Below are positions 1,041-20,619 of a stretch of DNA of 23,179 bases, one piece after another. The DNA is taken from IMG/VR virus record IMGVR_UViG_3300017726_000091, positions 1 through 23,179 of that record; one strand, given 5' to 3'. The stretch comes from a virus. The first letter of the stretch is position 1. Every line of letters starts with the position of its first letter. The notes beneath the pieces are model-generated. The model did no database searches. It worked only from the letters and a program-made list of their open reading frames with translations, and was not told the DNA's origin. A program made the translations under genes and the position numbers.

Positions 1041-1482
1041 GTATTTCGAGCTAGACATATCTAAAAAGACTAGACAAAGGGAATACATAGAGGCGAGGTT
1101 TATATACTTTACACTTGTCAAGAAATATACTGGACTCAGTTTAGCAGCAATAGCGAAAACAACAAACCAAAACCATGCTACAGTATTACATGGTATAAAA
1201 ACACTAAAGGATTTAATGCTACATGATAAGAGACTAAAGTTTAACTATAAGCTATTAGACAATAAAGTAGCAGACAACGACTCCGCAGTAAAAGACTTTG
1301 ATTTTACAGAAGGATTAGTACAAAGATATTTAAGCCTAAAACAAACAAATGAGGAGCTAACTAAAACAATAAACGAGCTTACTGAAAAACTAGACATAAC
1401 AAAAGAACAACTTAGGTTTTTTAAAGAGGGTTACTCCTACGAAAAAAGGTTACAAGGGAATAAGGTAATAACAAAAGATTAA
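1003..1482 (+). CDS. DnaA domain IV-like DNA-binding protein with coiled-coil tail
   Basis: Residues about 25-72 match the DNA-binding domain of DnaA. A helix (REYIEARFIYFTLVKKY) is followed by TGLSLAAIAKTTNQNHATVLHGI. The H58-A-T-V-L-H63 segment is the phage counterpart of the DnaA signature loop H-T-T-V-L-H that contacts the DnaA box. There is no AAA+ ATPase part, so this is a stand-alone binding domain. Residues about 112-145 form a charged heptad-like helix, probably a dimerising coiled coil. Phage proteins of this type could bind an origin, load a helicase, or regulate transcription; the position directly before the terminase genes gives no decision. The start is ATG 1003, inside the previous gene. 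The promoter-like element at 1464 overlaps its 3' end. Confidence 0.72.
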   Translation: MTNTTNIKEIINKYFELDISKKTRQREYIEARFIYFTLVKKYTGLSLAAIAKTTNQNHATVLHGIKTLKDLMLHDKRLKFNYKLLDNKVADNDSAVKDFDFTEGLVQRYLSLKQTNEELTKTINELTEKLDITKEQLRFFKEGYSYEKRLQGNKVITKD

Positions 1483-1503
1483 AAATTTGATTGTATAATT
1501 GAT
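1464..1503 (+). promoter_or_regulatory. Phage-type promoter element, copy 1 (terminase operon)
   Basis: It contains AACAAAA at 1470-1476, then 12 nt, then GATTGTATA at 1489-1497. The same two blocks at the same spacing recur five more times in the window. The TATA block starts 19 nt after ACAA, equal to the Bacteroidota -33 to -7 spacing. Transcription would begin near 1505, within the palindrome at 1498-1511. Confidence 0.55.
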
Positions 1504-1511
1504 TAATCAAT
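1498..1511. promoter_or_regulatory. Perfect 14-bp palindrome, operator candidate
   Basis: ATTGATTAATCAAT is its own reverse complement. It lies directly after the TATA block of the promoter-like element and before the terminase ATG at 1523, where a repressor would block initiation. None of the other five promoter copies shows such a palindrome at this position. Confidence 0.45.
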
Positions 1512-1522
1512 CTTTTTCAATT

Positions 1523-1768
1523 ATGGATAAAAGGATAAATAACGGTGGTAAAAGAGAGGGAGCAGGTCGTAAACCTAAGTCCGAAGAGATAAACTTAATA
1601 GAGAAGTTATCGCCTTTAGAACCGTTAGCACTTGCAGCATTAGAGAAAGGAGTCAAAGAGGGAGACTTTAAATTTGTACAACTATACCTCAACTATTACC
1701 TAGGTAGACCAGTAGAGAATAAGAACATAAACGTTAACGAGGACATACCGTTATTTATGACAGAGTGA
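1523..1768 (+). CDS. Probable terminase small subunit
   Basis: This 81-aa protein begins with a basic, glycine-rich segment (NNGGKREGAGRKPK), which resembles the AT-hook-like N-terminus common in small DNA-packaging proteins of phages. The rest is helical, with a C-terminal FVQLYLNYYLGRPVENK segment that also fits this group. In packaging, it would recognise viral DNA and present it to the large subunit. The frame is open to a TTG at 1499, but that start lies inside the promoter and palindrome, so ATG 1523 is preferred. The stop TGA overlaps the GTG start of the large subunit by 4 nt, which suggests translational coupling. It is shorter than most classical small terminases, so it may work as a multimeric DNA-binding accessory. 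The assignment relies on the basic motif and the neighbour. Confidence 0.72.
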   Translation: MDKRINNGGKREGAGRKPKSEEINLIEKLSPLEPLALAALEKGVKEGDFKFVQLYLNYYLGRPVENKNINVNEDIPLFMTE

Positions 1769-2931
1769 TAGCTAAGATAACTCCAGCTTTTAAGAAACTA
1801 CAAAAACTAGAATCAAGAATACGAATTGTAAGAGGAGGTTCTAGTGCTGGAAAAACAATCGCTATACTTTGCCTACTAATAAACAAAGCAATTAAAACAA
1901 AGGGTATAATTATATCTGTAGTGACTGCTACGGTCCCAGCTCTTAGACGAGGTGCTTTACAAGACTTTAGACAGATAATGAAATCTCTAAATAGGTTTGA
2001 CGACAGTAAGTTTAATAAAACACTTTTACAATATACCTTTTCCAACGGTAGTTATATAGAGTTCTTTAGTACAGACGATAGCTCAAAACTAAGAGGCGCT
2101 AGGAGAAACATACTATTTGTTAACGAGTGTAATACAGTTTCCTTTACAGCTTATCAGGAACTATCTATAAGAACCTCTGAGGATATTTGGCTAGACTACA
2201 ATCCAGTTACTAGGTTTTGGGTAGATAAGGAACTAGTTGGACAACCTGATACAGACTTTATAACCCTCACCTATAAAGACAACAATCAACTAAGCGAAAG
2301 CATAGTAAAAGAATTAGAGAAAGCTAGAGACAAGGCTAAGACCTCAGCTTACTGGTCCAACTGGGTTAGAGTTTATTTAGATGGGCTTACAGGGACTTTA
2401 GAGGGAGCGGTGATACCTAACTGGCAAGAGATAGATAACATACCCTTAGAGACGAGGTTATTGGGCTATGGCATGGATTTTGGATATTCAGTAGACCCTA
2501 GTACCTTAATTGCTTTATATAAGTGGAATGAAGCCTTTATATTTGATGAGGTCCTTTACAAAACAGGTATGCTTAATAGAGACATAAGTAGATTCTTAAC
2601 ACAAAACAATATAACAGAAAACATAATAGCGGATAGTGCCGAACCTAAAAGTATAGCAGAATTACAAAGCTATGGACATTCTATCTATGGAGTTGCAAAA
2701 GGTAGAGACTCAGTAGTATATGGATTAAACCTAATAAACCAAAACGAGATATATATAACATCTAGGAGCTTAAATCTAAAAAGAGAACTACAGGGATATA
2801 TATGGGCAAGAGATAAGGAGGGTAATCAGATACAGAAACCTACTGGAGAGCATCCTGATTGTATAGATGCGATGAGGTATGTATTTACAGATACCCAGCA
2901 AGGCAATAGGGGAGAATATCATATTTGGTAA
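1765..2931 (+). CDS. terL: Terminase large subunit
   Basis: This is the ATP-driven DNA packaging motor and headful or site-specific nuclease, which acts at the portal vertex. The 388-aa length is typical of the PBSX/Terminase_3 type. Walker A is GGSSAGKT at residues 24-31 and Walker B is ILFVNE at 116-121, followed by the NPVTRFWV segment. The RNase H-like nuclease domain starts near residue 232. It shows D238 in GYGMDFGYSVDPSTL, D290 in IIADSAEPKSI and D365/D368 in EHPDCIDAMRYVF, the expected acidic metal ligands. The start is GTG 1765, coupled to the small subunit stop. No key residue is missing. A host-type promoter follows at 2948 before any terminator, so the terminator at 3224 probably also ends this transcript. 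Confidence 0.95.
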   Translation: MIAKITPAFKKLQKLESRIRIVRGGSSAGKTIAILCLLINKAIKTKGIIISVVTATVPALRRGALQDFRQIMKSLNRFDDSKFNKTLLQYTFSNGSYIEFFSTDDSSKLRGARRNILFVNECNTVSFTAYQELSIRTSEDIWLDYNPVTRFWVDKELVGQPDTDFITLTYKDNNQLSESIVKELEKARDKAKTSAYWSNWVRVYLDGLTGTLEGAVIPNWQEIDNIPLETRLLGYGMDFGYSVDPSTLIALYKWNEAFIFDEVLYKTGMLNRDISRFLTQNNITENIIADSAEPKSIAELQSYGHSIYGVAKGRDSVVYGLNLINQNEIYITSRSLNLKRELQGYIWARDKEGNQIQKPTGEHPDCIDAMRYVFTDTQQGNRGEYHIW

Positions 2932-2947
2932 AATAAATAGAAAAATA

Positions 2948-2987
2948 TTTGGTATTTAATAAAATGTTTATATCTTTACAAAGTAAA
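2948..2987 (+). promoter_or_regulatory. Host-type Bacteroidota promoter with palindromic operator
   Basis: TTTG at 2948-2951, a 19-nt spacer and TATCTTTAC at 2971-2979 fit the Bacteroidota consensus TTTG-N19-TAnnTTTG. TTTAC at 2975-2979 and GTAAA at 2983-2987 form an inverted repeat over the expected start of transcription. The -7 box plus leader matches the minus-strand promoter at 15138-15169 at 25 of 27 positions. Confidence 0.72.
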
Positions 2988-3012
2988 ACAATAACAACTA
3001 AAAACAAAAACA

Positions 3013-3216
3013 ATGGAAAACACAAAAATAGAAATATACTATAGAACTGATAAACTTAAAGATATGTCCGTAGAAGAGATTCAAAAAATAGAGGACAAAC
3101 TTTGGGCAGCTTATAAACAAGCTGAGACAGCAAAGAAATATAAAAAGCTGTTTAAAGAAGAGCCTACTAATGTCGATTTACTTACTTCGATTATTAGTAC
3201 GGAAAATTTAGAATAA
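3013..3216 (+). CDS. Small hypothetical protein of a moron-like unit, 67 aa
   Basis: I do not recognise the family. The 67-aa product is hydrophilic and helical, with a Lys/Glu-rich centre (SVEEIQKIEDKLWAAYKQAETAKKYKKLF) likely to form an amphipathic helix or helical hairpin, and an acidic C-terminus. It has no membrane segment. The gene has its own host-type promoter (2948), an A-rich leader and its own terminator (3224), between the large terminase and two other small genes. That arrangement is typical of phage morons, which are often expressed independently of the lytic programme. The shared promoter and operator with the minus-strand gene at 14895-15107 suggests joint control by one regulator. 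Function could be host modification, exclusion or anti-defence, but nothing in the sequence decides. Confidence 0.7.
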   Translation: MENTKIEIYYRTDKLKDMSVEEIQKIEDKLWAAYKQAETAKKYKKLFKEEPTNVDLLTSIISTENLE

Positions 3217-3223
3217 CTAACAG

Positions 3224-3246
3224 GGGTCTTTCATAGACCCTTTTTT
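3224..3246 (+). terminator. Rho-independent terminator
   Basis: Stem GGGTCT (3224-3229) pairs with AGACCC (3235-3240) around the loop TTCAT, followed by six T. It lies 8 nt after the stop of the 67-aa gene and probably also ends terminase transcripts. Confidence 0.85.
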
Positions 3247-3265
3247 ATTAACCAAACTTTAATAT

Positions 3266-3403
3266 ATGAAATCGATTAATTATAAATACGTAATAATGTA
3301 CGCTCTTTTATTTAATACCTCTGCTCTTATGTGGATGTATGTAGCAGCTTATAATTTGCTATATTTGGAGGAATTATTTTACTCTTTAATTGAAATATTT
3401 TGA
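3266..3403 (+). CDS. 45-aa small membrane-like protein
   Basis: An ATG at 3266 opens a 45-aa frame. A short basic start (KSINYKY) is followed by a hydrophobic stretch from about residue 8 to 33 (VIMYALLFNTSALMW, then VAAYNLLYL), and then an acidic, aromatic C-terminus. This is the profile of a single-pass membrane peptide with a cytoplasmic N-terminus. It begins 19 nt after the terminator T-tract, and its TGA (3401-3403) is one base before the ATG of the next small gene, which suggests coupled translation. I do not recognise it. It could act in superinfection exclusion or as a regulator of lysis, but the lysis genes appear to be at the other end of the window. Its small size keeps confidence moderate. 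Confidence 0.5.
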   Translation: MKSINYKYVIMYALLFNTSALMWMYVAAYNLLYLEELFYSLIEIF

Positions 3404-3404
3404 T

Positions 3405-3623
3405 ATGATGACGGCTTGTTGGTACGAAAAGATATTCGTTGTACAAAAACCAGTACAAAGAGGCTACAGAAAAAAGGGTTACGATGTTACTCTCTACGTT
3501 GATTACAAAGGTCAAAATAAGATACATGGCAAAGAAACCTACAAACAAAATAGCAAAGAACTTGAAGATGCAATAAAAAAGGCTTATATTTATGCTTACA
3601 AGAAACTCATACTTGGTGAGTAG
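3405..3623 (+). CDS. Small basic hypothetical protein, 72 aa
   Basis: The protein from ATG 3405 is 72 aa. A TTG at 3390 is also in frame, but it would overlap the upstream membrane peptide, while ATG 3405 (or 3408) lies just after that stop. It starts MMTACWYEKIFVVQKP. The middle is basic and beta-rich (RGYRKKGYDVTLYVDYKG), and a C-terminal helix follows (ELEDAIKKAYIYAYKKLI). The overall layout, two or three strands followed by a helix, would fit a small nucleic-acid-binding or adaptor protein, but I recognise no family. It forms a two-gene unit with the membrane peptide, closed by the terminator at 3663. Confidence 0.55.
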   Translation: MMTACWYEKIFVVQKPVQRGYRKKGYDVTLYVDYKGQNKIHGKETYKQNSKELEDAIKKAYIYAYKKLILGE

Positions 3624-3662
3624 CTTTTTTTTTGTTTTGATTGAGATTATTTAGAATTGATT

Positions 3663-3686
3663 AAGAGGGACCTAGTTCCTCTTTTT
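3663..3686 (+). terminator. Rho-independent terminator
   Basis: AAGAGGGA (3663-3670) pairs with TTCCTCTT (3676-3683) around CCTAG, with one G-T pair, followed by a T-run. It separates the small-gene unit from the tail operon and sits immediately before promoter copy 2. Confidence 0.8.
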
Positions 3687-3687
3687 C

Positions 3688-3727
3688 ATTTTATACACTT
3701 TTTACCTTTTTTGATTGTATATATATG
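3688..3727 (+). promoter_or_regulatory. Phage-type promoter element, copy 2 (tail operon)
   Basis: ACA at 3695-3697 and GATTGTATA at 3713-3721 are in the same register as the other copies; the first block is degenerate here (TACACTT). The last three bases are the ATG of the tail chaperone gene, so a transcript made from it would have almost no leader. Confidence 0.5.
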
Positions 3728-4387
3728 AAAGTAGAAATATATGTTCCTGAGGACCTAAGCGAAATAACACTAGGTCAATACCAAAAGTTTGAAAAACTAA
3801 ATACAGAGGAAAACAAAGACTCAGCTTTTTTATTACAAAAAATGGTTGAGATATTCTGTAAGCTAAACCTCCAAGACGTTTTACAAATTAAGGTTAGAAG
3901 TCTTAACGGTATAGTATCTCACCTTAACGAGATATTTGAAAAAGAATATAAGCTGGTAGAGACCTTTACTTTAGAAGGTGTTAAGTATGGTTTCTGTCCT
4001 ATGCTAGACGATATGACACTAGGAGAGTACATAGACCTAGATAACACTTTAGGAGAATGGCAAGAGATGCATAAAGCCATGAGTATTTTATATAGACCTA
4101 TTACTTTCCAAAGAAATAATAAATACCAAATAGAAGAGTATAAAGGAGTAGACAATGCAGAGGTATTTAAGAATATGCCGCTGGACGTTGCTTTTGGTTC
4201 TATGGTTTTTTTTTGGAATTTAAAAAACGAATTGTTGACCAATATCCTGAGCTTTTTACACATGGAGAGCAAAGGCAATCTGACACCTCAGCAACTGGAG
4301 GCTTTGGAGCAAAGTGGGGTTGGTATCAGTCAATCTATGGACTTGCTCAAGGCGATGTTACCAAATTTGATAAGATTACCGAATTAA
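3725..4387 (+). CDS. Tail assembly chaperone, unshifted (gpG-like) product
   Basis: The 220-aa protein begins MKVEIYVPEDLSEITLGQYQKFEKL, a form I know from tail chaperones of Bacteroidota siphoviruses. These coat the tape measure protein and recruit tube subunits during tail assembly, and are absent from the finished virion. The body is helical and acidic, without membrane segments. Near residue 162 the codons run through a T9 tract and then TTAAAAAAC. There the -1 frame, open from 4171 to 4467, encodes the conserved second domain. As in lambda G/GT, this frame would be the abundant product and the shifted one the minor product. The chaperone gene is usually next to the tape measure gene, but here about 7 kb separates them. 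Role is inferred from the frameshift architecture and the N-terminus. Confidence 0.78.
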   Translation: MKVEIYVPEDLSEITLGQYQKFEKLNTEENKDSAFLLQKMVEIFCKLNLQDVLQIKVRSLNGIVSHLNEIFEKEYKLVETFTLEGVKYGFCPMLDDMTLGEYIDLDNTLGEWQEMHKAMSILYRPITFQRNNKYQIEEYKGVDNAEVFKNMPLDVAFGSMVFFWNLKNELLTNILSFLHMESKGNLTPQQLEALEQSGVGISQSMDLLKAMLPNLIRLPN

Positions 4388-4467
4388 ACGTACATAAATG
4401 TCTAATGTATTTAGCTTTTGAAAAAGATAAGATAGAGCTTGAAACTAAACTAATAAAGAAAAAATGA
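4171..4467 (+). CDS. -1 frame extension of the tail chaperone (gpT-like domain)
   Basis: This frame follows a TAA at 4168-4170 and has no convincing start of its own; only a TTG at 4213 lies near its beginning. It encodes GGFGAKWGWYQSIYGLAQGDV, then KITELNVHKCLMYLAFEKDKIE, which I recognise as the C-terminal domain of tail chaperones from Bacteroidota phages, where the WGWY...LA.GD and L.YL...K motifs are typical. It is therefore best read as the extension produced by -1 frameshifting within 4207-4228, giving a fusion of about 247 aa. Its stop overlaps the ATG of the next gene (ATGA at 4464), as expected if ribosomes finish here. The T domain would bind tube protein subunits. Confidence 0.8.
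   Translation, partial: EYAAGRCFWFYGFFLEFKKRIVDQYPELFTHGEQRQSDTSATGGFGAKWGWYQSIYGLAQGDVTKFDKITELNVHKCLMYLAFEKDKIELETKLIKKK
4207..4228 (+). other. Predicted -1 programmed ribosomal frameshift site
   Basis: Relative to the upstream frame, three slippery heptamers are present: T TTT TTT (4207-4213), T TTA AAA (4219-4225) and A AAA AAC (4222-4228). Each permits a -1 shift into the frame that encodes the conserved T-like domain. The A AAA AAC form is the best known. I did not find an obvious downstream stem-loop by eye. Confidence 0.75.
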
Positions 4468-4922: not shown

Positions 4923-5452
4923 CAAAAACACAAACCGCACTAGAAGCCTTTAAAAAGTTTGTTATACAACAAGCTAGGACTAGATTAACTAAAGGTAAAA
5001 AGAACGCCTCTAGGGAACTTTACAATAGTTTAAAAGGTGTTATAGGAGTTGGTCCTAATTCTATTGCTTTAGATTTTGAAATGGAGGAGTACGGAATATA
5101 CCAAGACAAGGGAGTCAAAGGAGTAGGAGGAGTAAGAAAAACTACAAGTAAGTTTAACAGTAAAAACAACAAGGGTAAGATGTGGAAGCAAAAAGCTAAA
5201 AACAGTCCCTTTAGTTTTAAGCAAGGCAATAAACCCTCTGTTAAACATTTCAAAGATTGGGCGAGAATGAAAGGACTAAACGCTTTTGCAGTAAGAGAGT
5301 CAGTATATCACCAAGGTATTAAACCTAGTTTATTCTTTACTAAACCTTTTGAACAAGCATTTAAGAAACTACCTAATGAATTAAAAGATAAGTTTGGCTT
5401 AGATATACAAGACTTTCTAGCATTTACATTAAACCAAGATAGATTAAGATGA
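4913..5452 (+). CDS. HK97 gp10-like head-tail joining / tail completion protein
   Basis: The 179-aa protein is strongly basic and helix-beta mixed. It has EYGIYQDKGVKGVGG after a beta strand. Later come FKQGNKPSVKHFKDWARMKGL and then VYHQGIKPSLFFTKPFEQAFKKL. The Y...D.GVKG motif followed by a GIKP..F...F.....L ending is the usual pattern of gp10-type neck proteins, which sit between connector and tail tube. It starts 10 nt inside the preceding gene and its stop forms ATGA with the next gene, so these tail genes are translated as a tightly coupled unit. Confidence 0.68.
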   Translation: MQLTKTQTALEAFKKFVIQQARTRLTKGKKNASRELYNSLKGVIGVGPNSIALDFEMEEYGIYQDKGVKGVGGVRKTTSKFNSKNNKGKMWKQKAKNSPFSFKQGNKPSVKHFKDWARMKGLNAFAVRESVYHQGIKPSLFFTKPFEQAFKKLPNELKDKFGLDIQDFLAFTLNQDRLR

Positions 5453-6978
5453 GTACATATACTAAAATAAACGTAAGGTCACCTTTTTTCTTACACTTAA
5501 CCGAACCAGCTGACCCTCTTCCTGAGTACGATTGTACAGTAGCAGGATTAACAGGATTTGCAGTAGATAACCAAGGGGTAATAACTCTACCTACTCCAGC
5601 TGTAGGAGCTATTCTAAGTTATACAAGCTCAGACGGTGATTTTGCAAATAACAAGTTTGCAGTAGAAAATAGTGATACTTCTAGGACTATATCAGTAACG
5701 CTCTCTATACCTCCTAACTTATTCTCTAATAGTAGCGATGCTACATTTGTGTGTACAGCTACAGCTACTCAAGCTGGTACTGGAGCTGGTGGAGGTACAG
5801 CTGTAATAGCACCTTGTACTGGAGGACCTAGTACCTCAGGCTCAATAGGCGCACAAACTTTAACTCTTGGAGGTTCTAGCGTTGACGTAGATTTAGCTGG
5901 ATTCTTTACAAGCGAAACAACTTACTCATTTTCTAATCCTAATCCAAACTTAGTAGACGTAGCAATCTCAGGAAGTGTTTTAACATTATCACCTACTACC
6001 CAAGCTGGTACGACTGTAGTTTATGGTATTGGTAGAGACAATAGCTACCCTACAACTTGTCAAGCAACTCAATCTATAAGTATAACTGTTAATGCAGGGG
6101 TGGCTTATGCTTGTACTTTAAATGGAGTAAACGTAATACAGGGAGGTTCTATAAGTCAGGCAGGAGTAATAACAAATCCTACAACGGTCCCAGTAGCAGC
6201 AATAACAGCTATAAAAGATTCAGGAGGAAGTGTAATAACCAGCGTAAGTGCAAACACTACTGGAAGCGTTAAGGACGTTGCTTTAACTTTTGTCTTAACA
6301 GCACCAGCACAATTTACTAACGCAGGAGCCTCAGTAGAGTGTGACTTAACATTAAAACAAGCTGCCTCTAGTTTAAAGCCTTGGAATTGTGATATAGCAA
6401 ACCTTACTGGACAGTCAATAGCTCAAAACGGTGCTATATCTCTTGGTACTGCTACTAATGGAACTGTAAAGAGTTTTACTCCTCCAAATCCAGTTTTCTC
6501 AAGTTCAGTAACTACAGATACTCCTAGAACTGTAGTATTTCAAGTATTAATACCTAGTGGTTTCGTAGGTGAGGGTACTACTGTAGACTGTACAAAAGAC
6601 AATTTAACTCAACCAGCTGGGACTAATGTTTGCGGAAGTAATACTAAGTTTATTACTAAAGGAAAACAAAACATCCAAGACGACAATCCTAACCAGTCCG
6701 ATTTTTGCTCGTTAGCTTTTGCAGCCGATGCAATAACAGAAGTGACATCTACTAAGAGTTCACTAATGGACCCTAACGCTAGGATATGTAAAGGCGGAAC
6801 ACCTTTTGACGGTAAGAATTTATATTACGGAATAGCTAATGTAAGTACAGATAGATACGCAGGTCCAAATGGAGGGTTCTTTAATTGGGTAAGAATAGAC
6901 TCAGACGGAATAGTAACCGAGGCAGGTTCTAAGTCTTGTCCTCAAGTTGGTGGAGCAGGTGGAGTAAATGTAGTTTAA
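5449..6978 (+). CDS. Tail protein with cysteine-bearing Ig-like repeats
   Basis: The 509-aa protein opens with TKINVRSPFFLHL, a conserved start of Bacteroidota phage tail proteins. Three related modules follow at residues 27-108, 219-305 and 311-389. Each begins aromatic-x-Cys (YDC, YAC, WNC), has a G-x-I...PT-like centre and ends with a strand containing Cys (FVC, VEC, VDC), so each could form one disulphide. Between modules 1 and 2, residues about 128-214 look like a different, cadherin-like Ig fold (GSIGAQTLTLGGSSVDVDLAGFF). The C-terminal 120 residues hold a FDGKNLYYGIA region and more Cys. It lies in the tail operon, so it is likely a surface-exposed tail or baseplate component for adhesion. 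It has no signal peptide, which fits a virion protein. Confidence 0.68.
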   Translation: MSTYTKINVRSPFFLHLTEPADPLPEYDCTVAGLTGFAVDNQGVITLPTPAVGAILSYTSSDGDFANNKFAVENSDTSRTISVTLSIPPNLFSNSSDATFVCTATATQAGTGAGGGTAVIAPCTGGPSTSGSIGAQTLTLGGSSVDVDLAGFFTSETTYSFSNPNPNLVDVAISGSVLTLSPTTQAGTTVVYGIGRDNSYPTTCQATQSISITVNAGVAYACTLNGVNVIQGGSISQAGVITNPTTVPVAAITAIKDSGGSVITSVSANTTGSVKDVALTFVLTAPAQFTNAGASVECDLTLKQAASSLKPWNCDIANLTGQSIAQNGAISLGTATNGTVKSFTPPNPVFSSSVTTDTPRTVVFQVLIPSGFVGEGTTVDCTKDNLTQPAGTNVCGSNTKFITKGKQNIQDDNPNQSDFCSLAFAADAITEVTSTKSSLMDPNARICKGGTPFDGKNLYYGIANVSTDRYAGPNGGFFNWVRIDSDGIVTEAGSKSCPQVGGAGGVNVV

Positions 6979-6987
6979 TAAATAGAT

Positions 6988-11361: not shown

Positions 11362-12878
11362 TGTTAGAGCTTGAAGTCAAAACTGGAGCTGCTATAGACA
11401 ATATAGAAGATGTTCAGGAGGCTATACAAGACGTAGGAGAGGAAACAAAAAAAACGACAACCGATGTAACTGAGTTAGGTGGTCAACTAGACTCTGTATC
11501 AGGCGGAGCTATAACAAAGTTTAAAGGACTTACTGGTACCCTTGGAGGTGTTGTTAAGAGTTTCAAAACACTTAAGGGAGCTATAATTGCTACAGGTATA
11601 GGAGCTTTGATTATAGCAGTAACAGCTCTGACTACAGCTTTTACTTCAAGTGAAGCTGGACAAAACAAGCTATCTAAAGCATTAAAACAGTTGGGAGTTA
11701 TTGCTGGGAATGTAGGTGATATATTTTCTAGTCTTGGTATGGTAATTATAGGAGTCTTTACAGGTGATTTAGATGAGGCTGGAAAAGCCTTTGATGAGTT
11801 TAAAGAAAGGATTACCAACTTTGGCGAAGAGACACGAAAAGAAATAGCTTTAGCTGGTGAACTTGCTGATAAGATTGCAGAGGCAAATAAAAAAGAGAGA
11901 GAATTACTTGTAGAGAGAGCGCAGACTAACGTAGAAATAAATAAGCTAAAAACAAAAGCCGCAGAGGTTGATAAGTTTACTACAGAACAAAGAATATCAT
12001 TCTTACAAAAAGCTGCCACCTTAGAAGATGAAATAACAGGCAAAGAGGTAGAGTTAGCTAAGACTAGAAGAGATATAAAAATACAAGAAAACTCATTAAG
12101 CGAATCTACCCAAGAGGACCTTATGGATGAGGCTATGCTAACTGAGCAGGTAATAAGACTTGAAGAGGGTAGGCTTATTAGAAATAAAGAACTTCTAGGA
12201 GTAGCAGCTGGACTTAGAAAGGCAGAAAACGATAAGATAGCAGCCGAACGAAAAGCAGAGCTAGACGCTTTTAAAAAACAGCAAGACGATATATCGGCAA
12301 TACTTAAAGATAGTATTACAACAAATGCAACGGCTGTTATAACCTCTGAGAAAGATGTAAATAGTAAACTTAAAGGACTTCTTAAGAAAAAAGGTGAGGA
12401 CGAGGTTCAGATAGAAAAACTAACAACTGAGCAAAAACTTAAACTAGCCTCAGATGCTTTCGGTAATTTAGCTACTATATTTGGAGAGGAAAGTAAGGCT
12501 GGTAAAGCAGCGGCAATAGCACAAACTACGATAGATACTTTAGTTTCCGCACGAGCAGCCTTTAAGTCTTTAGCTGGTATTCCAGTAGTAGGACCAGTTT
12601 TAGGAGGTATAGCCGCAGCGGCAGCACTAGCTACAGGATTTAGAACTATTAAAGAAATTCAAAGTGTTGGTCCTCCAGTAGCAGCACCAAACGTAGCAGG
12701 TCCTAGAGGAGCAGCGTCACCAAGTTTTAACATAGTAGGAGCTAGTCCAGTAAATCAACTAGCAGAAACTATAGGAGAGCAAAGCAGCCAACCAGTAAAA
12801 GCCTTTGTAGTTTCTAATGAGGTTACTACAGCACAAGGTTTAGAACGTAATATAATAGACGGTGCAACGATTGGATAA
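11346..12878 (+). CDS. Tape measure protein
   Basis: The 510-aa protein sets tail length and passes into the host envelope at infection. The N-terminus (KVMLELEVKTGAAIDNIEDVQE) is a short strand and helix. Hydrophobic, Gly/Ala-rich segments lie near residues 78-100 and 116-140, and again near 410-436 (AGIPVVGPVLGGIAAAAALATG). In between are long charged helices typical of a coiled coil. The C-terminus (QPVKAFVVSNEVTTAQGLERN) resembles the conserved end of Bacteroidota phage tape measures. By the usual 0.15 nm per residue it would correspond to a short tail of about 75 nm. The last bases overlap promoter copy 3, so the following protease gene may be transcribed separately. Confidence 0.87.
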   Translation: MAQKVMLELEVKTGAAIDNIEDVQEAIQDVGEETKKTTTDVTELGGQLDSVSGGAITKFKGLTGTLGGVVKSFKTLKGAIIATGIGALIIAVTALTTAFTSSEAGQNKLSKALKQLGVIAGNVGDIFSSLGMVIIGVFTGDLDEAGKAFDEFKERITNFGEETRKEIALAGELADKIAEANKKERELLVERAQTNVEINKLKTKAAEVDKFTTEQRISFLQKAATLEDEITGKEVELAKTRRDIKIQENSLSESTQEDLMDEAMLTEQVIRLEEGRLIRNKELLGVAAGLRKAENDKIAAERKAELDAFKKQQDDISAILKDSITTNATAVITSEKDVNSKLKGLLKKKGEDEVQIEKLTTEQKLKLASDAFGNLATIFGEESKAGKAAAIAQTTIDTLVSARAAFKSLAGIPVVGPVLGGIAAAAALATGFRTIKEIQSVGPPVAAPNVAGPRGAASPSFNIVGASPVNQLAETIGEQSSQPVKAFVVSNEVTTAQGLERNIIDGATIG

Positions 12879-12910
12879 CAAAATATAAGAAATTAGATTG
12901 TATAGATATG
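12871..12910 (+). promoter_or_regulatory. Phage-type promoter element, copy 3 (protease operon)
   Basis: AACAAAA at 12877-12883 and GATTGTATA at 12896-12904 fit the shared pattern exactly. The final three bases are the ATG of the protease gene, as in copies 2 and 4. Confidence 0.55.
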
Positions 12911-14485
12911 GATATAGTAGAGTTAATAATAGATGAAAATGACCAAACCCTTGGTATAGAAGCAGTTAGCTTAGTAGAAGCACCAGCCATTGAAGAAACG
13001 TTTGTAGCATTAAAAAACCAAAAGATAGAATTTGCAGAGGTTGACAAAGAAAAACGTATTCTTTTAGGACCAGCTTTAATTCCTAATAAACCCATATTTA
13101 GAAAAAGAGCAGGAGAAGAGGAAGGCTTTTATATTTACTTTTCCAAAGATACAGTACGCAAAGCAAGTGAATTGTTTTTCCAAAAGGGCAACCAAAATAA
13201 CGCAACCTTAGAACATAACGTAAAACTTAAAGGACTAACAGTTGTAGAGAGCTGGTTAGTTGAGGGGGATAATGATAAGAGTAAGAACTACGGACTAGAT
13301 ATGCCTGAGGGTACTTGGATGATTTCTATGAAAGTAGAGGATGAAAAGATATGGAACGAATATGTAAAAAGTAAAAAGGTTCTAGGTTTTAGTATAGAAG
13401 GTTACTTTGCAGACAAGTTAGAAAGACCTCAAGACCGAGCTATTAAAGATGACCTCAGCGAACTAGAAAGCGAGTTTCTATTAGAAGAGTTAAAAGAAAT
13501 GCTATCTACTAGGGTTACACTAGACTCGTATAATGACTATCCTGACTCAGCTGTAAACAATGCAAAAAAAGCAATAGACCTAAATAAGTCTATAGACAAT
13601 AAGTGCATGACTCAAGTAGGTAAGATAAGAGCTAGACAAATCAGCAAAAAGCAAAAACTCTCTGAGCAGGTTCTAGTAAGAGTTAGGTCTTATTTAGAAA
13701 GAGCAGAGGTTTACTATAATGAAAAAGATATGAAAGCGTGTGGGACGATTGCCTACCTCGCTTGGGGGGGATTGTCTATGAAGAGATATGTAAACGCTAA
13801 ACTAAAGACTCTAGGATATGAAAACCTAGAAGAGCAGTCTACAAGAGTAATTGATGAAAACTACGCTATTATAGACGATAGATTAGCTTATAGCAGTTTA
13901 CAAAAAGCGGTTGATATAAGTAAAGATTTAGGTTGTCAGGGTTTCCATATTCATGAGATGGACGGTAAAAAATGGTATATGCCATGTGAACAGCATAGCG
14001 TAAATATGAAATATAAATGTCCTAAAGGTTATAAAAAAGATTACCAAAAACATAAGTGCGTTAAAATGGCTGAGGTAGGACCAAGAGGCGGTATCAAAAA
14101 AAGTCCAAAAGCTCCAAAGTCAGGAACACCAAACCCAAAACCTAAAGGAGAGGGAACAGCTAAAGGAGACGCATCCACGACAAGAGGTGCTAAGGTTTCG
14201 GCTAAAGATTTAGCAGCCTTACAAAAAAAAAGCGATGACTTTAACGAAAGGTATAAAGACAAGCTAGGATACGGTGCAACAATAGGACAACTTAAAGCGG
14301 TATTTCAAAGAGGTCTAGGAGCCTTTAATACTTCCCATAGTCCTAGGATTAAGTCACCTACTGCATGGGCACAAGCAAGAGTCAACGCTTATCTATATTT
14401 ACTTAAAAACGGTAGACCACAAAACGCTAAATATACTGGTGATTTTGATTTGCTACCTAAGAAACATCCAAAGAGTCCAAAATGA
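12908..14485 (+). CDS. Multidomain head maturation protein with XkdF-like prohead protease
   Basis: Residues about 48-170 form an XkdF-like serine protease (Peptidase S78_2 type). They contain ILLGPALIPNKPIFRK, H103 in ATLEHN, the VVESW strand and S162 in VLGFSIEG, the likely catalytic His and Ser. Prohead proteases cut scaffold and capsid during maturation. Residues 208-303 hold a second helical domain (YPDSAVNNAKKAI, CGTIAYLAWGG). Residues 342-386 hold a short Cys/His region (GCQGFHIHE, WYMPC, then CPKGYKKDYQKHKC) that may bind metal. A Lys/Gly/Pro linker follows. Residues 452-525 match the DUF5824-type ending (GLGAFNTSHSPRIKSP, WAQARVNAYLYLLKNG, DLLPKKHP). The gene lies before scaffold and capsid genes. 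Several parts could be separated by cleavage after assembly. The stop overlaps the next ATG. Confidence 0.85.
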   Translation: MDIVELIIDENDQTLGIEAVSLVEAPAIEETFVALKNQKIEFAEVDKEKRILLGPALIPNKPIFRKRAGEEEGFYIYFSKDTVRKASELFFQKGNQNNATLEHNVKLKGLTVVESWLVEGDNDKSKNYGLDMPEGTWMISMKVEDEKIWNEYVKSKKVLGFSIEGYFADKLERPQDRAIKDDLSELESEFLLEELKEMLSTRVTLDSYNDYPDSAVNNAKKAIDLNKSIDNKCMTQVGKIRARQISKKQKLSEQVLVRVRSYLERAEVYYNEKDMKACGTIAYLAWGGLSMKRYVNAKLKTLGYENLEEQSTRVIDENYAIIDDRLAYSSLQKAVDISKDLGCQGFHIHEMDGKKWYMPCEQHSVNMKYKCPKGYKKDYQKHKCVKMAEVGPRGGIKKSPKAPKSGTPNPKPKGEGTAKGDASTTRGAKVSAKDLAALQKKSDDFNERYKDKLGYGATIGQLKAVFQRGLGAFNTSHSPRIKSPTAWAQARVNAYLYLLKNGRPQNAKYTGDFDLLPKKHPKSPK

Positions 14486-14859: not shown

Positions 14860-14860
14860 A

Positions 14861-14885
14861 AATAAAAAAAGGAGCCGAAGCTCCT
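14861..14885 (-). terminator. Rho-independent terminator, mainly for the minus strand
   Basis: AGGAGC (14870-14875) and GCTCCT (14880-14885) flank CGAA, which reads as the very stable TTCG loop on the minus strand, followed there by seven T. It closes the minus-strand gene and may also stop the 125-aa gene from the other side, though its plus-strand T-run is interrupted. Confidence 0.85.
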
Positions 14886-14894
14886 GTTGTTTTG

Positions 14895-15107
14895 TTAAAA
14901 TAAACCTTTTTTTAGATAATTGTTAATTGACCATTCAATTCCGTAACCTTTTTCAATCATTTCAATAACGTCGTTAAAGGTTGTGTATTTTTTGATATTA
15001 TCAAATGAATAATTTTTATAAGGCTGAATCTTTTTGTCAGCAAATGCACCCTCATTAGTTGTGATGCTTTTTATTTTTTTAAATACTTTTTTTTCTAGTT
15101 GTGTCAT
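14895..15107 (-). CDS. Minus-strand small hypothetical protein of a moron-like unit, 70 aa
   Basis: This is the only gene on the minus strand. The 70-aa product is basic at the start (TQLEKKVFKKIKSITTNEGAF), with aromatic residues and a charged middle (YKNYSFDNIKKYTTFNDVIEMIEKGYGIEW), and has no membrane segment. I do not recognise the family. The gene has its own host-type promoter, an A-rich leader like that of the gene at 3013, and its own terminator, all inside the gap between the protease operon and the scaffold. This is the standard arrangement of a moron. The helical second half would suit a small protein-binding inhibitor, but no motif supports a role. The shared operator with the gene at 3013 suggests joint control. 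Confidence 0.75.
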   Translation of the reverse strand: MTQLEKKVFKKIKSITTNEGAFADKKIQPYKNYSFDNIKKYTTFNDVIEMIEKGYGIEWSINNYLKKGLF

Positions 15108-15129
15108 TTTATTTTGTTTTTGTTATTGT

Positions 15130-15169
15130 TTTACTCTGTAAATATACAACCTTTTTTGATATAAACAAA
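15130..15169 (-). promoter_or_regulatory. Host-type promoter with palindromic operator, minus strand
   Basis: Read on the minus strand, TTTG (15169-15166), a 19-nt spacer and TATATTTAC (15146-15138) match the Bacteroidota consensus. The TTTAC-N3-GTAAA palindrome spans 15142-15130. Sequence and leader match the promoter at 2948 closely. Confidence 0.75.
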
Positions 15170-15189
15170 TAATTAACAATTTATTTTAA

Positions 15190-15229
15190 ATATGCAACAA
15201 AAAACTTGCTATCTAGTTGTTATATAAAA
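15190..15229 (+). promoter_or_regulatory. Phage-type promoter element, copy 4 by position (head operon)
   Basis: AACAAAA at 15196-15202 and AGTTGT at 15215-15220 keep the shared spacing, but one base is inserted before the ATATA block. The scaffold ATG follows at 15240. It stands back to back with the minus-strand promoter. Confidence 0.45.
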
Positions 15230-15239
15230 CCCTTATTAT

Positions 15240-15815
15240 ATGAAAGCACTAGAAATGTTAAATAAAGTTAAGGAGCTTGTTGGTGTTGAGCTGGAAACAG
15301 AAAAAGTAACACTAGCTCAGGCTACTTTAAAAAACGGTACTGTGCTAGAGAGTGAGAGCTTTGAAAAAGGCTCAGAAGTCTTTATAGTTACAGAAGATGA
15401 GAGAGTAGCTTTACCAGTTGGTAGCTATGAGCTTGAAGATGGTGAAATGATACTTGTAAAAGAAGAAGGTATTATTGATGCTATTGGAAAAGCAGAAGAA
15501 GAAGAAGTCCAAGAAAAAGAGGAAGAACTATCTGAAGAAGTTGAAGTACAAGCGGAAGAAGAAAAAGAAGAAATGCAGTACGCTACTAAAACCGAGCTTG
15601 AGGAAGTTAAGAAACTTGTCGAGGAAGTAAAGGATATGGTTAAGGCTATGGACCAAAAACCTAAAGAAGAGATGTCAGCGGTTGTTGAACCTCCTCAAAA
15701 GATAACTCATAGTCCAGAGATAAAAGAAAGTAAAGTCAATGTACAGACTCCACAAAGGCAGCCTGAGACTACATACGACAGAGTTTTACAGAAAATAGCA
15801 AATATTAATAAATAA
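15240..15815 (+). CDS. Probable capsid scaffolding protein
   Basis: The 191-aa protein has three parts. The N-terminal 80 residues include VTLAQATLKNGTVLESESFEKG and a VALPVGSYELEDGEMILV strand repeat, a small beta domain I recognise from pre-capsid genes of Bacteroidota phages. Residues 85-140 are a very acidic, Glu-rich stretch and coiled coil. The end (TTYDRVLQKIANINK) is a short basic helix, as in scaffolds where the C-terminus contacts the capsid subunit. Scaffolds guide procapsid assembly and leave or are cut, and a prohead protease gene lies shortly upstream. The gene is 4 nt before the capsid gene. Fusion-like combinations with a head fibre domain are also possible. Confidence 0.68.
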   Translation: MKALEMLNKVKELVGVELETEKVTLAQATLKNGTVLESESFEKGSEVFIVTEDERVALPVGSYELEDGEMILVKEEGIIDAIGKAEEEEVQEKEEELSEEVEVQAEEEKEEMQYATKTELEEVKKLVEEVKDMVKAMDQKPKEEMSAVVEPPQKITHSPEIKESKVNVQTPQRQPETTYDRVLQKIANINK

Positions 15816-15819
15816 TAAT

Positions 15820-16767: not shown

Positions 16768-16786
16768 TATTAATAGATAAAAAGAT

Positions 16787-17197: not shown

Positions 17198-17206
17198 TTA
17201 ATAACT

Positions 17207-17225
17207 GGTGGCTGAGACTGCCGCC
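17207..17225 (+). other. Intergenic RNA hairpin without T-tract
   Basis: GGTGGC (17207-17212) can pair with GCCGCC (17220-17225) around TGAGACT, with one G-T pair. No T-run follows, so it is not a standard terminator. It could stabilise the capsid transcript or reduce read-through into the tube gene. Confidence 0.4.
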
Positions 17226-17242
17226 TAATAAATTTAAAATCA

Positions 17243-17791
17243 ATGGCTTGTTTACTTACAGCGGGAAGAAAGGTACCATGTAAAGATGTTGTCGGTGGGA
17301 TTAAAGATATATTCTTTTTTAATTATAGCACTATAACAACGACTTTTGATAGTACAGATACAGACGTTATAGACAGTTTAGGAGACGTAACTTGTTTTAA
17401 CTACGAATTAAAAGGGAATAGCTCTTTTGAACAAACAATAACAGCCTCAAGAGAAAACGGAACAGCTTTCTTTGAGCAGACGTTAAATTTAACTTTAACA
17501 AAATTGACAGTTCAAGACCATAAAGAGCTTAAACTTTTGGTATATAATAGACCTCATGTAGTTATAGTAGATTATAACTCTAATGCGTTTATGATGGGCT
17601 TAGAACATGGAGCAGACGTTTCAGGAGGAACGATTGTAACTGGAGCAGCTATGGGAGACTTAAGCGGTTATACGCTTACTCTTACAGCTCAAGAGTTGAA
17701 ACCAGCTAACTTCTTAGAGGGTGCGACTTCAGCTAATCCATTTGCAGGAATGACAGGAACGGTAACTGTAACGGAAGGAACTAACTCGTAA
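17243..17791 (+). CDS. Probable major tail tube protein
   Basis: The 182-aa protein starts MACLLTAGRKVPCKDVVGGIK. It continues with strands typical of tube proteins: NGTAFFEQTLNLTLTKLTVQDHKELKLL, a loop, and VIVDYNSNAFMMGLEHGADVSGGTIVTGAAMGDLSGYTLTL. This arrangement is conserved in flavobacterial siphoviruses, where I recall it as the tail tube. It forms a beta-barrel ring around the tape measure. The gene lies downstream of the capsid and far from the other tail genes at 3.7-12.9 kb, which is unusual. A terminator at 17814 closes the unit. Confidence 0.65.
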   Translation: MACLLTAGRKVPCKDVVGGIKDIFFFNYSTITTTFDSTDTDVIDSLGDVTCFNYELKGNSSFEQTITASRENGTAFFEQTLNLTLTKLTVQDHKELKLLVYNRPHVVIVDYNSNAFMMGLEHGADVSGGTIVTGAAMGDLSGYTLTLTAQELKPANFLEGATSANPFAGMTGTVTVTEGTNS

Positions 17792-17813
17792 GGGTTATTC
17801 ATTTGGTAAGATT

Positions 17814-17844
17814 AAAGGGTAACTTAACGGTTGCCCTTTTTTTT
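17814..17844 (+). terminator. Rho-independent terminator
   Basis: AAAGGGTAAC (17814-17823) pairs with GTTGCCC and following T (17830-17839) around TTAACG, and a run of eight T ends at 17844. It separates the head operon from the portal operon, and promoter copy 5 begins within its end. Confidence 0.9.
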
Positions 17845-17880
17845 ATAACAAAATTTAGCTTTTTTGGTTGTATATATATG
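17841..17880 (+). promoter_or_regulatory. Phage-type promoter element, copy 5 by position (portal operon)
   Basis: AACAAAA at 17847-17853 and GGTTGTATA at 17866-17874 match the shared pattern. It follows directly on a terminator, and its last three bases are the ATG of the next gene. Confidence 0.55.
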
Positions 17881-18222
17881 ATTATATTACAAGAGAGCGG
17901 CTCTTCACAAAATATAGACTTTATTCCTAGGAGTTTTACAAGCGGTAGGAGTTATTCTGTTTCAATAGTAGACGAAACATCTAACAAAGTAATACATACA
18001 GCTACTACTACTGGCATTACTAGCAACTTATATTTTAATAGGTATAGTGCAACCTTTGCAACAAAGCAAGACATATTCTATAACCTAACAATAAAAGACG
18101 GTACTACGGTAATATTTAAGGATAAGATATTTTGTACAAACCAAACAGACCTACCAAATTACAGCGTTAACAATGGGGTCTATACCGCTAATAGTGACGA
18201 TAACGAATTTATAACAGTATAA
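17878..18222 (+). CDS. Conserved small phage protein, 114 aa
   Basis: The start is ATG 17878, giving MIILQESGSSQNIDFIPRSF. The frame runs upstream to an ATG at 17803, but that segment is the terminator and promoter, so the shorter form is chosen. The protein is beta-rich, with strands YSVSIVDETSNKVIHTA, LYFNRYSATF and FYNLTIKDG, suggesting a single beta-sandwich. Its MIILQES...FIPR start recurs in proteins of other Bacteroidota phages. It lies before the portal, which it overlaps by 1 nt, so it may be a head-vertex or tail-fibre accessory protein. No catalytic motif is visible. Confidence 0.65.
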   Translation: MIILQESGSSQNIDFIPRSFTSGRSYSVSIVDETSNKVIHTATTTGITSNLYFNRYSATFATKQDIFYNLTIKDGTTVIFKDKIFCTNQTDLPNYSVNNGVYTANSDDNEFITV

Positions 18223-19985
18223 TGGATAATTTACATATAGTAAACTTGTCGTCTTATAATAGACCACAAATAAAAGAAGATAAGAAACTTGACTACGTCA
18301 AATACGGTGACGATAACGATTACTACTCTTATCTTATAGACTTATTTACTAACTCGACTACAAACCATTCTATCATATCCTCAGTTGCGTCTATGGTATA
18401 TGGTAAAGGGGTAGATGCGTTAGACAGCTCTACAAAGACAGATGAGTACGCAGCCTTAAAATCTATATTTAACAATGACTGTTTAAGAAAGATATGTTTG
18501 GACCTAAAACTTTTAGGAGAGGCTAGTTTTCAAGTAATATACCAAAACGGAAAAGTATTAAAAGCCGAACACTTCCCAAGACAAACTCTCAGAGCTGAGA
18601 AAATGGACGATGAGGGTAAGATAAAAGGCTATTACTATTCAGCTGACTGGTCCAAAGTAAAACAGGGAGACGACCTTAAAAGAATCGCAGCTTTTGGATA
18701 TGGTAATAAAGTAGAACCTGAGATAAAAGTAATTAAGAAGTATATATCAGGCTATGATTACTACTGTCCCCCTGATTACCAAGGTGGAACAGCATACGCA
18801 GAAATGGAAAGCGAAATAAGTGACTACCTTATAAACGATATTCAAGCAGGTTTCTCAGGAACTAAAGTAATAAACTTTAATAATGGGGTGCCTGATAGAG
18901 AAAAACAGCTACAGGTTAAGCAGGATATAATGAACAAACTAAGCGGTAGTCTTGGAGAGAAAATTATAGTTGCTTTTAACAACAATGCAGAAAGTAAAAC
19001 AACTGTAGATGACCTACCTTTAAACGATGCACCAGCACACTATGAGTATTTAGCTAGAGAGTGTGCAAATAAATTAATAGTAGCTCATAAAGTTACAAGT
19101 CCTTTACTCTTGGGTATAAGAACAGAGAACCAAGGTCTAGGCTCAAATGCAGACGAAATAAGAACCGCTAGTCTACTTTTCCATAATACTACTATAAGAC
19201 CCCTACAAGAGCTTATAACGGACTGTATGGACCAAATACTAGCTGTAAACGATATAAGCCTTAAGCTGTACTTTAAAACGCTACAGCCTTTAGAATTTAT
19301 AGAAACAGAAAACGCAGTAACTAAAGAAGCTAAAGAGGAAGAGACAGGAGTAAAACTTTCAGACGATAAACTAAACAGTATAGCAGACGCTCTTATAGAT
19401 TTAGGAGAGGATGAGGACCTAGAAAACTGGGACTTAGTAGACGAGAAAAAAGTAGACTATGACGAGGAGGAAAGGCTAGATAAAATGATAGGGTTAGCAA
19501 ATACAGGAAGTGCTAGACCAAATGCTAGTAGTGAACAAGACGGTGAGGTAGAAAAACAGGACGAGGTTTTAAAATTTAAAGTTAGATACGCATACGCACC
19601 AGCAAGAGCAGACAATGAATCGAGAGAGTTTTGTAGTAAAATGGTAGCAGCAAAAAAGGTTTATCGTAAAGAAGATATTATCTCTATGGATAATAAAGTA
19701 GTAAATGCTGGTTGGGGTCCTAACGGTGCAAATACCTATTCTGTTTGGTTTTTCAAAGGAGGTGGGTCATGTAGGCATTTTTGGATTCGTAAGACGTTTA
19801 TGGCTAAAGATGTAAACCCTGATGTAAAAAACCCAAATGCAGAGATAACAGTAAATAAAGCAAAAAGCGAAGGTTTCACACCAGCAACCAATGACGCTAA
19901 AGTAGCTAAAAGAACAAGAGACCAAGTCAATAGAGGTTTTCTACAACCTAAGAACTTTAAAACACCAAAAAGTAAAGGAGTATAA
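18222..19985 (+). CDS. Portal protein with C-terminal MuF-like domain
   Basis: The 587-aa protein forms the dodecameric gate through which DNA enters. Residues about 1-365 have the portal layout, with YVKYGDDNDYYSYLIDLF near the start, the LLGEASFQVIY strand, and the crown-to-stem helices around KLIVAHKVTSPLLLGI. After an acidic linker (370-450) a separate domain follows at about 451-525. It reads KFKVRYAYAPARADNESREFCSKM, with VYRKEDI, and ends GGGSCRHFWIRKTF. The pattern, including the C471 and C-R-H ending, resembles MuF/SPP1 gp7-type minor head proteins. This suggests a portal-MuF-like fusion, since no separate MuF gene is seen here. The last 40 residues are basic and may bind DNA. Confidence 0.85.
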   Translation: MDNLHIVNLSSYNRPQIKEDKKLDYVKYGDDNDYYSYLIDLFTNSTTNHSIISSVASMVYGKGVDALDSSTKTDEYAALKSIFNNDCLRKICLDLKLLGEASFQVIYQNGKVLKAEHFPRQTLRAEKMDDEGKIKGYYYSADWSKVKQGDDLKRIAAFGYGNKVEPEIKVIKKYISGYDYYCPPDYQGGTAYAEMESEISDYLINDIQAGFSGTKVINFNNGVPDREKQLQVKQDIMNKLSGSLGEKIIVAFNNNAESKTTVDDLPLNDAPAHYEYLARECANKLIVAHKVTSPLLLGIRTENQGLGSNADEIRTASLLFHNTTIRPLQELITDCMDQILAVNDISLKLYFKTLQPLEFIETENAVTKEAKEEETGVKLSDDKLNSIADALIDLGEDEDLENWDLVDEKKVDYDEEERLDKMIGLANTGSARPNASSEQDGEVEKQDEVLKFKVRYAYAPARADNESREFCSKMVAAKKVYRKEDIISMDNKVVNAGWGPNGANTYSVWFFKGGGSCRHFWIRKTFMAKDVNPDVKNPNAEITVNKAKSEGFTPATNDAKVAKRTRDQVNRGFLQPKNFKTPKSKGV

Positions 19986-19987
19986 AT

Positions 19988-20503
19988 ATGGCAGATTTCG
20001 CACTTTTCGTAACAAGAGCTGACGTTGTAAAGTTTACTTCGGCAAATGGTAATATAGATACTGATAGTTTTATACAGTATTTAAAGGAGGCTCAGGATAT
20101 ACATATACAAAACTATTTAGGGTCTAAGTTGTATGAAAAACTACAAACAGATGTAAAAGCAAATCCTACTAGTCTTACAGGGAACTACTTGACTTTAGTA
20201 AATACGCATATAAAACCATGTTTAGTACATTGGGCAATGGTAAGAGCTTTGCCATTTTTAACCTATACGGTATCTAACAAGGGAGTATTTAAAGGAACAA
20301 GCGAAAACGCTGAGAGTATAACAAAAGAAGAGCTAGACTACCTAGTAGAAAAAGAGAGAGAGACTGCTCAGTATTATACAGATAGACTTATAGACTTTTT
20401 AGTCTTTAATTCCCCTAGTATGTTTCCTGAGTATTACACTAATAATAACGATGACAGACATCCTTTAAAGGGTGGGACCGATTTTGAGGGTTGGGTACTA
20501 TGA
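19988..20503 (+). CDS. Head-tail connector (adaptor) protein
   Basis: The 171-aa protein has a mostly helical fold with EAQDIHIQNYLGSKLYEKL, then KPCLVHWAMVRALPFLTYTVSNKGVFKG and ERETAQYYTDRLIDFLV. The helix order and the position 2 nt after the portal stop fit the gp6/gp15-type adaptor ring that binds under the portal. The FGGTDFEGWVL-like ending (KGGTDFEGWVL) may dock on the next ring. The ATG follows TATAAAT with no Shine-Dalgarno sequence. The stop is read through by an overlapping small frame at 20500. Confidence 0.72.
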   Translation: MADFALFVTRADVVKFTSANGNIDTDSFIQYLKEAQDIHIQNYLGSKLYEKLQTDVKANPTSLTGNYLTLVNTHIKPCLVHWAMVRALPFLTYTVSNKGVFKGTSENAESITKEELDYLVEKERETAQYYTDRLIDFLVFNSPSMFPEYYTNNNDDRHPLKGGTDFEGWVL

Positions 20504-20619
20504 GAAAATACAAACCTAAAAAAGAAAATGTTACCAAGCTAAAGAAGTATTTGGCTTATATAACAAAAAACGATAAAAAAGATTGTAATAATATAGTTAA
20601 TTATGGCAAATACAGTTGA
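20500..20619 (+). CDS. Possible 39-aa Lys-rich protein
   Basis: An ATG overlapping the connector stop (ATGA) opens a 39-aa frame with 13 Lys, such as KYKPKKENVTKLKKYLAYITK. It overlaps the next gene start by 17 nt and contains promoter copy 6. The overlap style matches its neighbours, but a Lys-rich frame can arise by chance in AT-rich DNA, so it is only a candidate. Confidence 0.4.
   Translation: MRKYKPKKENVTKLKKYLAYITKNDKKDCNNIVNYGKYS
20556..20595 (+). promoter_or_regulatory. Phage-type promoter element, copy 6 by position (fibre and lysis genes)
   Basis: AACAAAA at 20562-20568 and GATTGTAATA at 20581-20590 keep the shared spacing, with one A in place of the usual T after TTGTA. The ATG of the 66-aa gene is 8 nt further on. 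Confidence 0.5.

Follow-up and report, generated by a model that had tools for sequence, protein, structure and literature searches.

A two-block element repeated before the late genes of a marine phage, probably read by a phage-encoded ECF-like sigma factor

Introduction

What reads a two-block element that recurs six times along the structural genes of an uncultured marine virus? The element was found in IMG/VR record IMGVR_UViG_3300017726_000091, a 23,179-base virus record whose whole length is called the window here. The window is the structural part of a siphophage-like genome, with terminase, XkdF-type protease, portal and tail-fibre genes. By portal protein, its closest cultured relatives are the Nonlabens phages P12024S and P12024L (36%); this kinship, together with host-type promoters in these phages, makes a Bacteroidota host likely. 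A first-pass annotation took the six elements for promoters of a kind specific to the phage, placed where functional modules begin and perhaps dependent on a phage activator; such a class before late modules, and its need for a phage factor, are supported here.

We propose with high confidence that the six elements are bipartite late promoters read by host core RNA polymerase together with a compact sigma factor of the extracytoplasmic function (ECF) type encoded by the phage. This proposal is put forward because each record with the motif has an orthologue of the sigma-like protein, a residue of which covaries with the -10 triplet, and because sister clades with a divergent sigma show divergent -10 triplets at the same genes.

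Results

Six elements with fixed spacing

The six 40-base-pair stretches singled out by the first-pass annotation (Table 1) all carry ACA at positions 8-10 and TTGT at positions 28-31. The blocks are also as it described them: AACAAAA is present in five of the six (the site at 3688 has ATACACT), as is GRTTGTA (the site at 15190 has AGTTGTT). The overall form is a -35 block TAACAAA and a -10 block TATTGTATA, with 23 nucleotides from the A of ACA to TATA, and every site in the window carries the triplet TTG. On the + strand of the window, ACAAA and TTGT form five pairs at a distance of 20 nucleotides and 0-2 pairs at any other distance between 5 and 40; the exact 20-nucleotide spacing at five of the six sites compares with an expectation of about 0.1 to 0.4. 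Longer versions of the pattern are similarly enriched, with ACAAAA-N14-TTGT found five times (0.14 expected) and TTGTATA-N-ATATG three times (0.00 expected).

A matrix scan against shuffled and coding DNA had been named beforehand as the result on which the proposal should stand or fall, and the elements came through it. The matrix was trained solely on eight relatives outside the portal clade of the window, so that the window sites were held out. The six sites scored 21.0, 18.8, 16.0, 14.4, 10.0 and 8.2 and were all among the top nine matches on both strands. In order-2 Markov shuffles the maximum score averaged 8.2, with a 95th percentile of 14.4. The two weakest sites, at 3688 and 15190, are without significance by score alone, as shuffles reach that level; they are supported by synteny.

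Conservation before late genes

In 80 loci gathered by portal protein, ACAAA-TTGTA pairs peak at 20 nucleotides, with 119 pairs (a count inflated by near-copies) versus at most 18 at any other sense-strand distance. Eleven related records gave 73 sense matches versus 6 antisense matches at a matrix score of at least 12. Sixty-one of the sense matches sit 5′ of orthologues of the same six late genes as in the window, and most of the others precede another late gene next to the scaffold gene or a variant fibre gene. Eight of these records had trained the matrix; the three that had not (G001, G002 and G006) contain 17 sites, every one 5′ of late genes. G006 is probably complete, because the protease gene is present at both ends of the contig. 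It has six clear sites, and the matrix scan found none in its early region from 7 to 19.6 kilobases, which seems to hold the genes for lysis, replication and recombination. Several copies of one motif are found, then, before late genes and not before early ones.

Among the gene neighbours of the elements, terminase and portal assignments are backed by PHROGs and the protease assignment by PF14550, with the fifth site lying 5′ of a small gene that precedes the portal gene. The labels scaffold (15240), tail (3725) and fibre (20603) are guesses from position.

Two of the records, G008 (L177/L178) and G014 (L189/L190), contain two portal genes each. G008 looks like an assembly chimera, because its two parts differ in promoter type.

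Host-type promoters occur separately

Two of the elements directly follow intrinsic terminators, as had been noted in the first pass, and in relatives a similar GC hairpin and T-run stand in front of the orthologue of the fifth element. On a rival reading, the host primary sigma factor recognises the element as a degenerate -33/-7 promoter, and a phage activator may stand in for the -33 contact. In favour of this, ACAA lies as far from TATA as TTTG does from TAnnTTTG in Bacteroidota promoters, and a Bacteroidota host is probable. However, none of the six sites matches TTTG-N19-TAnnTTTG or TTTG-N19-TAnnTTT, and proper host-type promoters are present elsewhere in the same phages: on their sense strand TTTG-N19-TAnnTTTG peaks at the correct spacing (12 versus about 3.5 at other distances), and two near-copies lie in the window 5′ of small accessory genes. 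In addition, the -10 triplet of the element varies in step with a phage protein (see below), which host recognition does not predict. A host promoter is thus a very unlikely explanation, and the earlier idea of a host promoter with its -33 box swapped gives way to an element that tracks a phage ECF-like sigma instead. A separate activator is superfluous as an explanation for the element.

A sigma-like protein accompanies the element

P12024S encodes, 5′ of the terminase gene, a protein (gp33) whose annotation names Sigma-70 region 2. With a profile built from the protein that corresponds to it, an orthologue of 179-195 amino acids was detected in all 12 motif-bearing records besides the window, at 224 bits or more, and elsewhere just distant versions of 125-159 amino acids at 22-61 bits. 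The gene lies outside the window, which begins after it. A contig that overlaps the right end of the window (L206, Table 1) carries the gene at about 5157-5696, in a frame that opens with a non-ATG codon. Residue 60 of the encoded protein is Arg, in agreement with the six TTG sites of the window (see below).

Pfam and PHROG matches of the protein are weak, with sigma factors among them; the versions from sister clades pass the Sigma70_r2 cut-off. An AlphaFold model of moderate confidence (predicted local distance difference test 77.6, predicted template modelling score 0.43) was compared with the PDB by Foldseek, and the top matches were all sigma factors, mostly of the ECF type (6dv9 and 6jbq among them). 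In the predicted fold, regions 2 and 4 are present and regions 1.1 and 3 are absent, as in ECF sigma factors. No anti-sigma partner was seen, no search having been aimed at an anti-sigma gene.

Among cultured phages the sigma of the motif-bearing clade was not found, and the distant form was present only in P12024S and P12024L. Bacterial genomes gave three matches, a Candidatus Thioglobus record, a Bacteroidetes metagenome-assembled genome and one weak match, and therefore neither a prophage link nor a firm host. In the Candidatus Thioglobus record the match is a phage contig (L284) that carries this sigma together with sites of the TTA type. Such a host would be unexpected for this group, and the phage may have been co-sorted or be a contaminant.

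Sister clades carry altered -10 triplets

Related sigma clades each have their own -10 triplet (TTG, TTA, CGA, CGT or CAT). TTGT is replaced by TTAT in G001, G002, G012 and G013 with ACAAA unchanged, and ACAAAA..CGATATA is found at the same genes in a sister clade, with 54 CGA cases in protease loci. Further forms are TGCAAAA..CGTTATA in G014, G018 and G021, TATAACAC..CATTAATA in G015 and G016, and AAAACAAAA..CGTTAATA in P12024S, and each form accompanies its own sigma subclade. Sister clades had also been considered as lacking the motif; this was rejected, as orthologous gene starts show an altered -10 block instead.

These substitutions bear on whether the element is the operator of a dimeric regulator, an activator or repressor bound near an ordinary promoter, with ACAA...TTGT as an inverted repeat whose half-sites are about two helical turns apart. 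The core is self-complementary, and a search for ACA-N17-TTGT finds the same sites on both strands. In relatives, however, the right half becomes TTAT or CGA/CGT while the left ACAAA stays, so that the symmetry is lost, and the TATA behind the triplet varies less than symmetry alone would call for. The inverted repeat is not conserved, the dyad operator was rejected, and we regard such a regulator as very unlikely.

Promoter type changes twice on the sigma tree, three times on the portal tree and four times on the terminase tree, which includes the chimeric G008. This comparison modestly favours the sigma-like protein as the partner of promoter type.

Residue 60 covaries with the third base of the triplet

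Within the sigma-like protein, residue 60 (G006 numbering) was compared with the third base of the TTG/TTA triplet across 70 different sigma proteins, each having one scored site or more. Proteins with Arg60 accompany 108 G and 13 A sites (121 in all), versus 2 G and 60 A sites (62 in all) for Lys, Gln or Glu60. Both of the latter G sites belong to an apparently foreign part of the chimeric G008; they were kept in the site totals and excluded from the tree test. Column 60 was the best of 183, with 98.5% correct and a mutual information of 0.81 (0.71 for the next column). Because the column had been chosen by eye from the first twelve sigma proteins, only loci fetched after the idea count as a test. 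These loci, which include near-relatives, obey the rule in 36 of 36 cases: those with Arg are mainly TTG (20/20) and the others TTA (16/16). On the best tree the label switches six times, and two independent pairs are left on fully supported branches.

The segment Y62-M-Y-F-T-L-R68-S69 was aligned by eye to the ECF motif W-L-x-x-I-A-R-N, and on this alignment residue 60 would lie at the end of the ECF specificity loop. In SigH this loop (residues 72-79) holds the flipped -10 base (PMC6411747).

Start codons at a fixed distance

In 106 of 175 unique sites an ATG stands 30 or 31 nucleotides after the A of ACA, which is 10 or 11 nucleotides after the start of the triplet. These start codons are probably real, because conservation is seen in the encoded N-termini, variation is greatest at third codon positions and in-frame stops upstream are common. 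The fixed distances would suit an alternative in which the element is not a promoter but acts in the 5′ part of the mRNA to initiate translation. At the remaining sites, though, the ATG is mostly 35-77 nucleotides away while the ACAAA-to-TTRT spacing is constant, the ACAA/TTGT stem is not conserved, and two elements lie directly behind terminators, where transcription must restart. A translation element is therefore extremely unlikely. For promoters read by the sigma factors of phages phiEco32 and 7-11, transcription starts 6-9 base pairs from the element (PMC8948821). If this spacing holds here, the late mRNAs from these 106 sites are predicted to begin at, or a few bases from, the start codon.

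Neighbouring features of the window

The -35 block of the first element lies inside the final codons of the open reading frame at 1003-1482 (+), immediately 5′ of the putative terminase promoter. This frame encodes a 159-amino-acid protein with an orphan DnaA domain IV (PF08299, 46.5 bits) and is kept in G006. Right behind the element, at 1499-1510, is the palindrome TTGATTAATCAA, which recurs at this position in G001, G002, G005 and G006, with 12 loci having it in total; it may be an operator that covers the start site for the terminase operon.

Two accessory cassettes have host-type promoters of their own. The first (2948-3242, +) consists of TTTG-N19-TATATCTTT at 2948-2977, an open reading frame of 67 amino acids at 3013-3216 that matched no known family, and a terminator at 3222-3242. 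The second (14870-15169, -) has TTTG-N19-TATATTT at 15140-15169 (-) and an open reading frame of 70 amino acids at 14895-15107 (-). It ends in a two-way terminator at 14870-14885 and lies back to back with the fourth element.

Table 1. Elements, terminators and contig overlap in the window. Scores are from the held-out matrix; late promoters are putative.
Feature	Coordinates	Strand	Sequence blocks	Context	Score	Related records
Late promoter 1	1464..1503	+	-35 TAACAAAA (ACA at 1471), -10 GATTGTATA (TTG at 1491)	5′ of small terminase gene (ATG 1523)		Orthologous site in 11/11
Late promoter 2	3688..3727	+	-35 TATACAC, -10 GATTGTATATATATG	Final triplet is ATG of gene 3725-4387	10.0	Orthologous site at same gene in 10/11
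Late promoter 3	12871..12910	+	ATAACAAAA, GATTGTATAGATATG	Final triplet is ATG of XkdF-type protease gene 12908-14485	18.8	Synteny
Late promoter 4	15190..15229	+	CAACAAAA, AGTTGTTATATAA	5′ of gene 15240-15815 (probable scaffold)	8.2 (weakest)	Orthologous sites
Late promoter 5	17841..17880	+	ATAACAAAA, GGTTGTATATATATG	ATG 17878 of small gene preceding portal	14.4	Synteny
Late promoter 6	20556..20595	+	ATAACAAAA, GATTGTAATAATATA	5′ of gene 20603-20803 (probable fibre-module gene)	21.0	Synteny
Intrinsic terminator	3663..3683	+		Directly 5′ of late promoter 2
Intrinsic terminator	17814..17839	+		Directly 5′ of late promoter 5
Right end of window	23055..23179	+		Overlapped by contig L206 (last ~124 bases, two mismatches, about 98%), which carries the sigma gene

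Discussion

We infer promoter activity, binding by the sigma-like protein, late timing and leaderless starts from the comparisons above. Transcription of early genes would rely on the host sigma factor and TTTG-N19-TAnnTTTG promoters. The phage sigma, encoded in the early region just beyond the fragment, would be made next and, on host core polymerase, would then start the six morphogenesis operons, at whose module borders terminators and new promoters are placed. Region 4 of the sigma would read ACAAA, and the specificity loop of region 2, with residue 60, would contribute to recognition of the third triplet base (TTG/TTA). Because most start codons are located where transcription should begin, the leader of many late mRNAs would be very short or absent.

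Several observations weigh against this proposal. The sigma of the window phage itself is seen only in L206, an overlapping contig of a near-identical phage. Sigma70_r2 matches were obtained for 3 of 12 members and Sigma70_r4_2 matches for 5 of 12, all below the curated cut-off, and a PDB sequence search with the sigma profile returned only chance matches to antibodies. Foldseek E-values go no lower than 0.001, and free placement of the two domains in the model keeps the whole-chain TM-score low. For promoter type, the sigma tree is only slightly better than the portal tree (two versus three changes). Two independent switches at residue 60 are too few for strict phylogenetic significance, and the neighbouring columns 71 and 47 correlate too.

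More broadly, and with rather less than even confidence, these phages may be a widespread marine clade, so far uncultured, that probably infects Bacteroidota and has its own ECF-like sigma. The -10 specificity of this sigma would have been switched repeatedly in nature via one loop residue, Arg reading G and Lys, Gln or Glu reading A; the late promoters within a genome would have been rewired as a set, and late mRNAs would be largely leaderless. Dozens of uncultured genomes show the sigma alongside its putative regulon of some 5 to 7 promoters, which opens the co-evolution of sigma and promoter, and the rewiring of an entire regulon via one residue, to direct tests. The element could also help to annotate late operons in flavobacterial phages from the sea, and with its sigma it is a candidate for an orthogonal pair in Bacteroidota. 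No description of phage-specific late transcription in Bacteroidota phages was found in the literature searched, most subscription journals lying outside the search.

Phage late sigma factors are known from Salmonella phage 7-11 (SaPh711_gp47) and Escherichia coli phage phiEco32 (phi32_gp36) (PMC8948821). SPO1 too has a sigma and late promoters of its own. Like the system proposed here, that of 7-11 combines a phage sigma, host core polymerase, bipartite late promoters of fixed spacing and host-sigma early promoters; its eight late promoters, GTAAtg-(16)-aCTA, lie 5′ of late gene clusters (PMC8948821). The promoter sequence, phage group and host phylum differ, and 7-11 was established biochemically whereas the present system is proposed from comparison; neither residue-base covariation nor a start codon at the -10 box has been described for 7-11. 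The phiEco32 sigma likewise serves middle and late genes, with start sites 6-8 base pairs downstream of its promoters (PMC8948821). Its element tAATGTAtA resembles TATTGTATA, probably by chance. Promoters of phiEco32 have a single element without a -35 block and its sigma is without region 4, whereas in the present element ACAAA varies least, and its sigma is predicted to have region 4.

With bacterial ECF sigma factors (SigH and SigL of Mycobacterium tuberculosis, SigmaE of E. coli) the candidate shares a predicted two-domain fold of regions 2 and 4, rigid spacing and a putative specificity loop for a flipped -10 base (PMC6411747). It differs in being phage-borne, in its very low sequence similarity and in a -35 block ACAAA instead of the classical GGAAC. 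The Bacteroidota housekeeping promoter TTTG-N19-TAnnTTTG has the same distance between blocks, but neither block matches and it occurs separately in the same phages. In the Nonlabens (Persicivirga) phages P12024S and P12024L, gp33 is likewise a Sigma-70 region 2 protein encoded just 5′ of the terminase gene, and at least five similarly built AAAACAAAA..CGTTAATA sites lie on the late strand. Their -10 triplet is CGT and the spacing is about one nucleotide shorter; gp33 is a distant sigma that tblastn with the motif-clade protein does not find, and it is annotated only, with no regulon study found in the literature searched. Taken together, the system appears best filed as a phage-encoded ECF-like sigma regulon, which would work like 7-11 gp47 with its late promoters.

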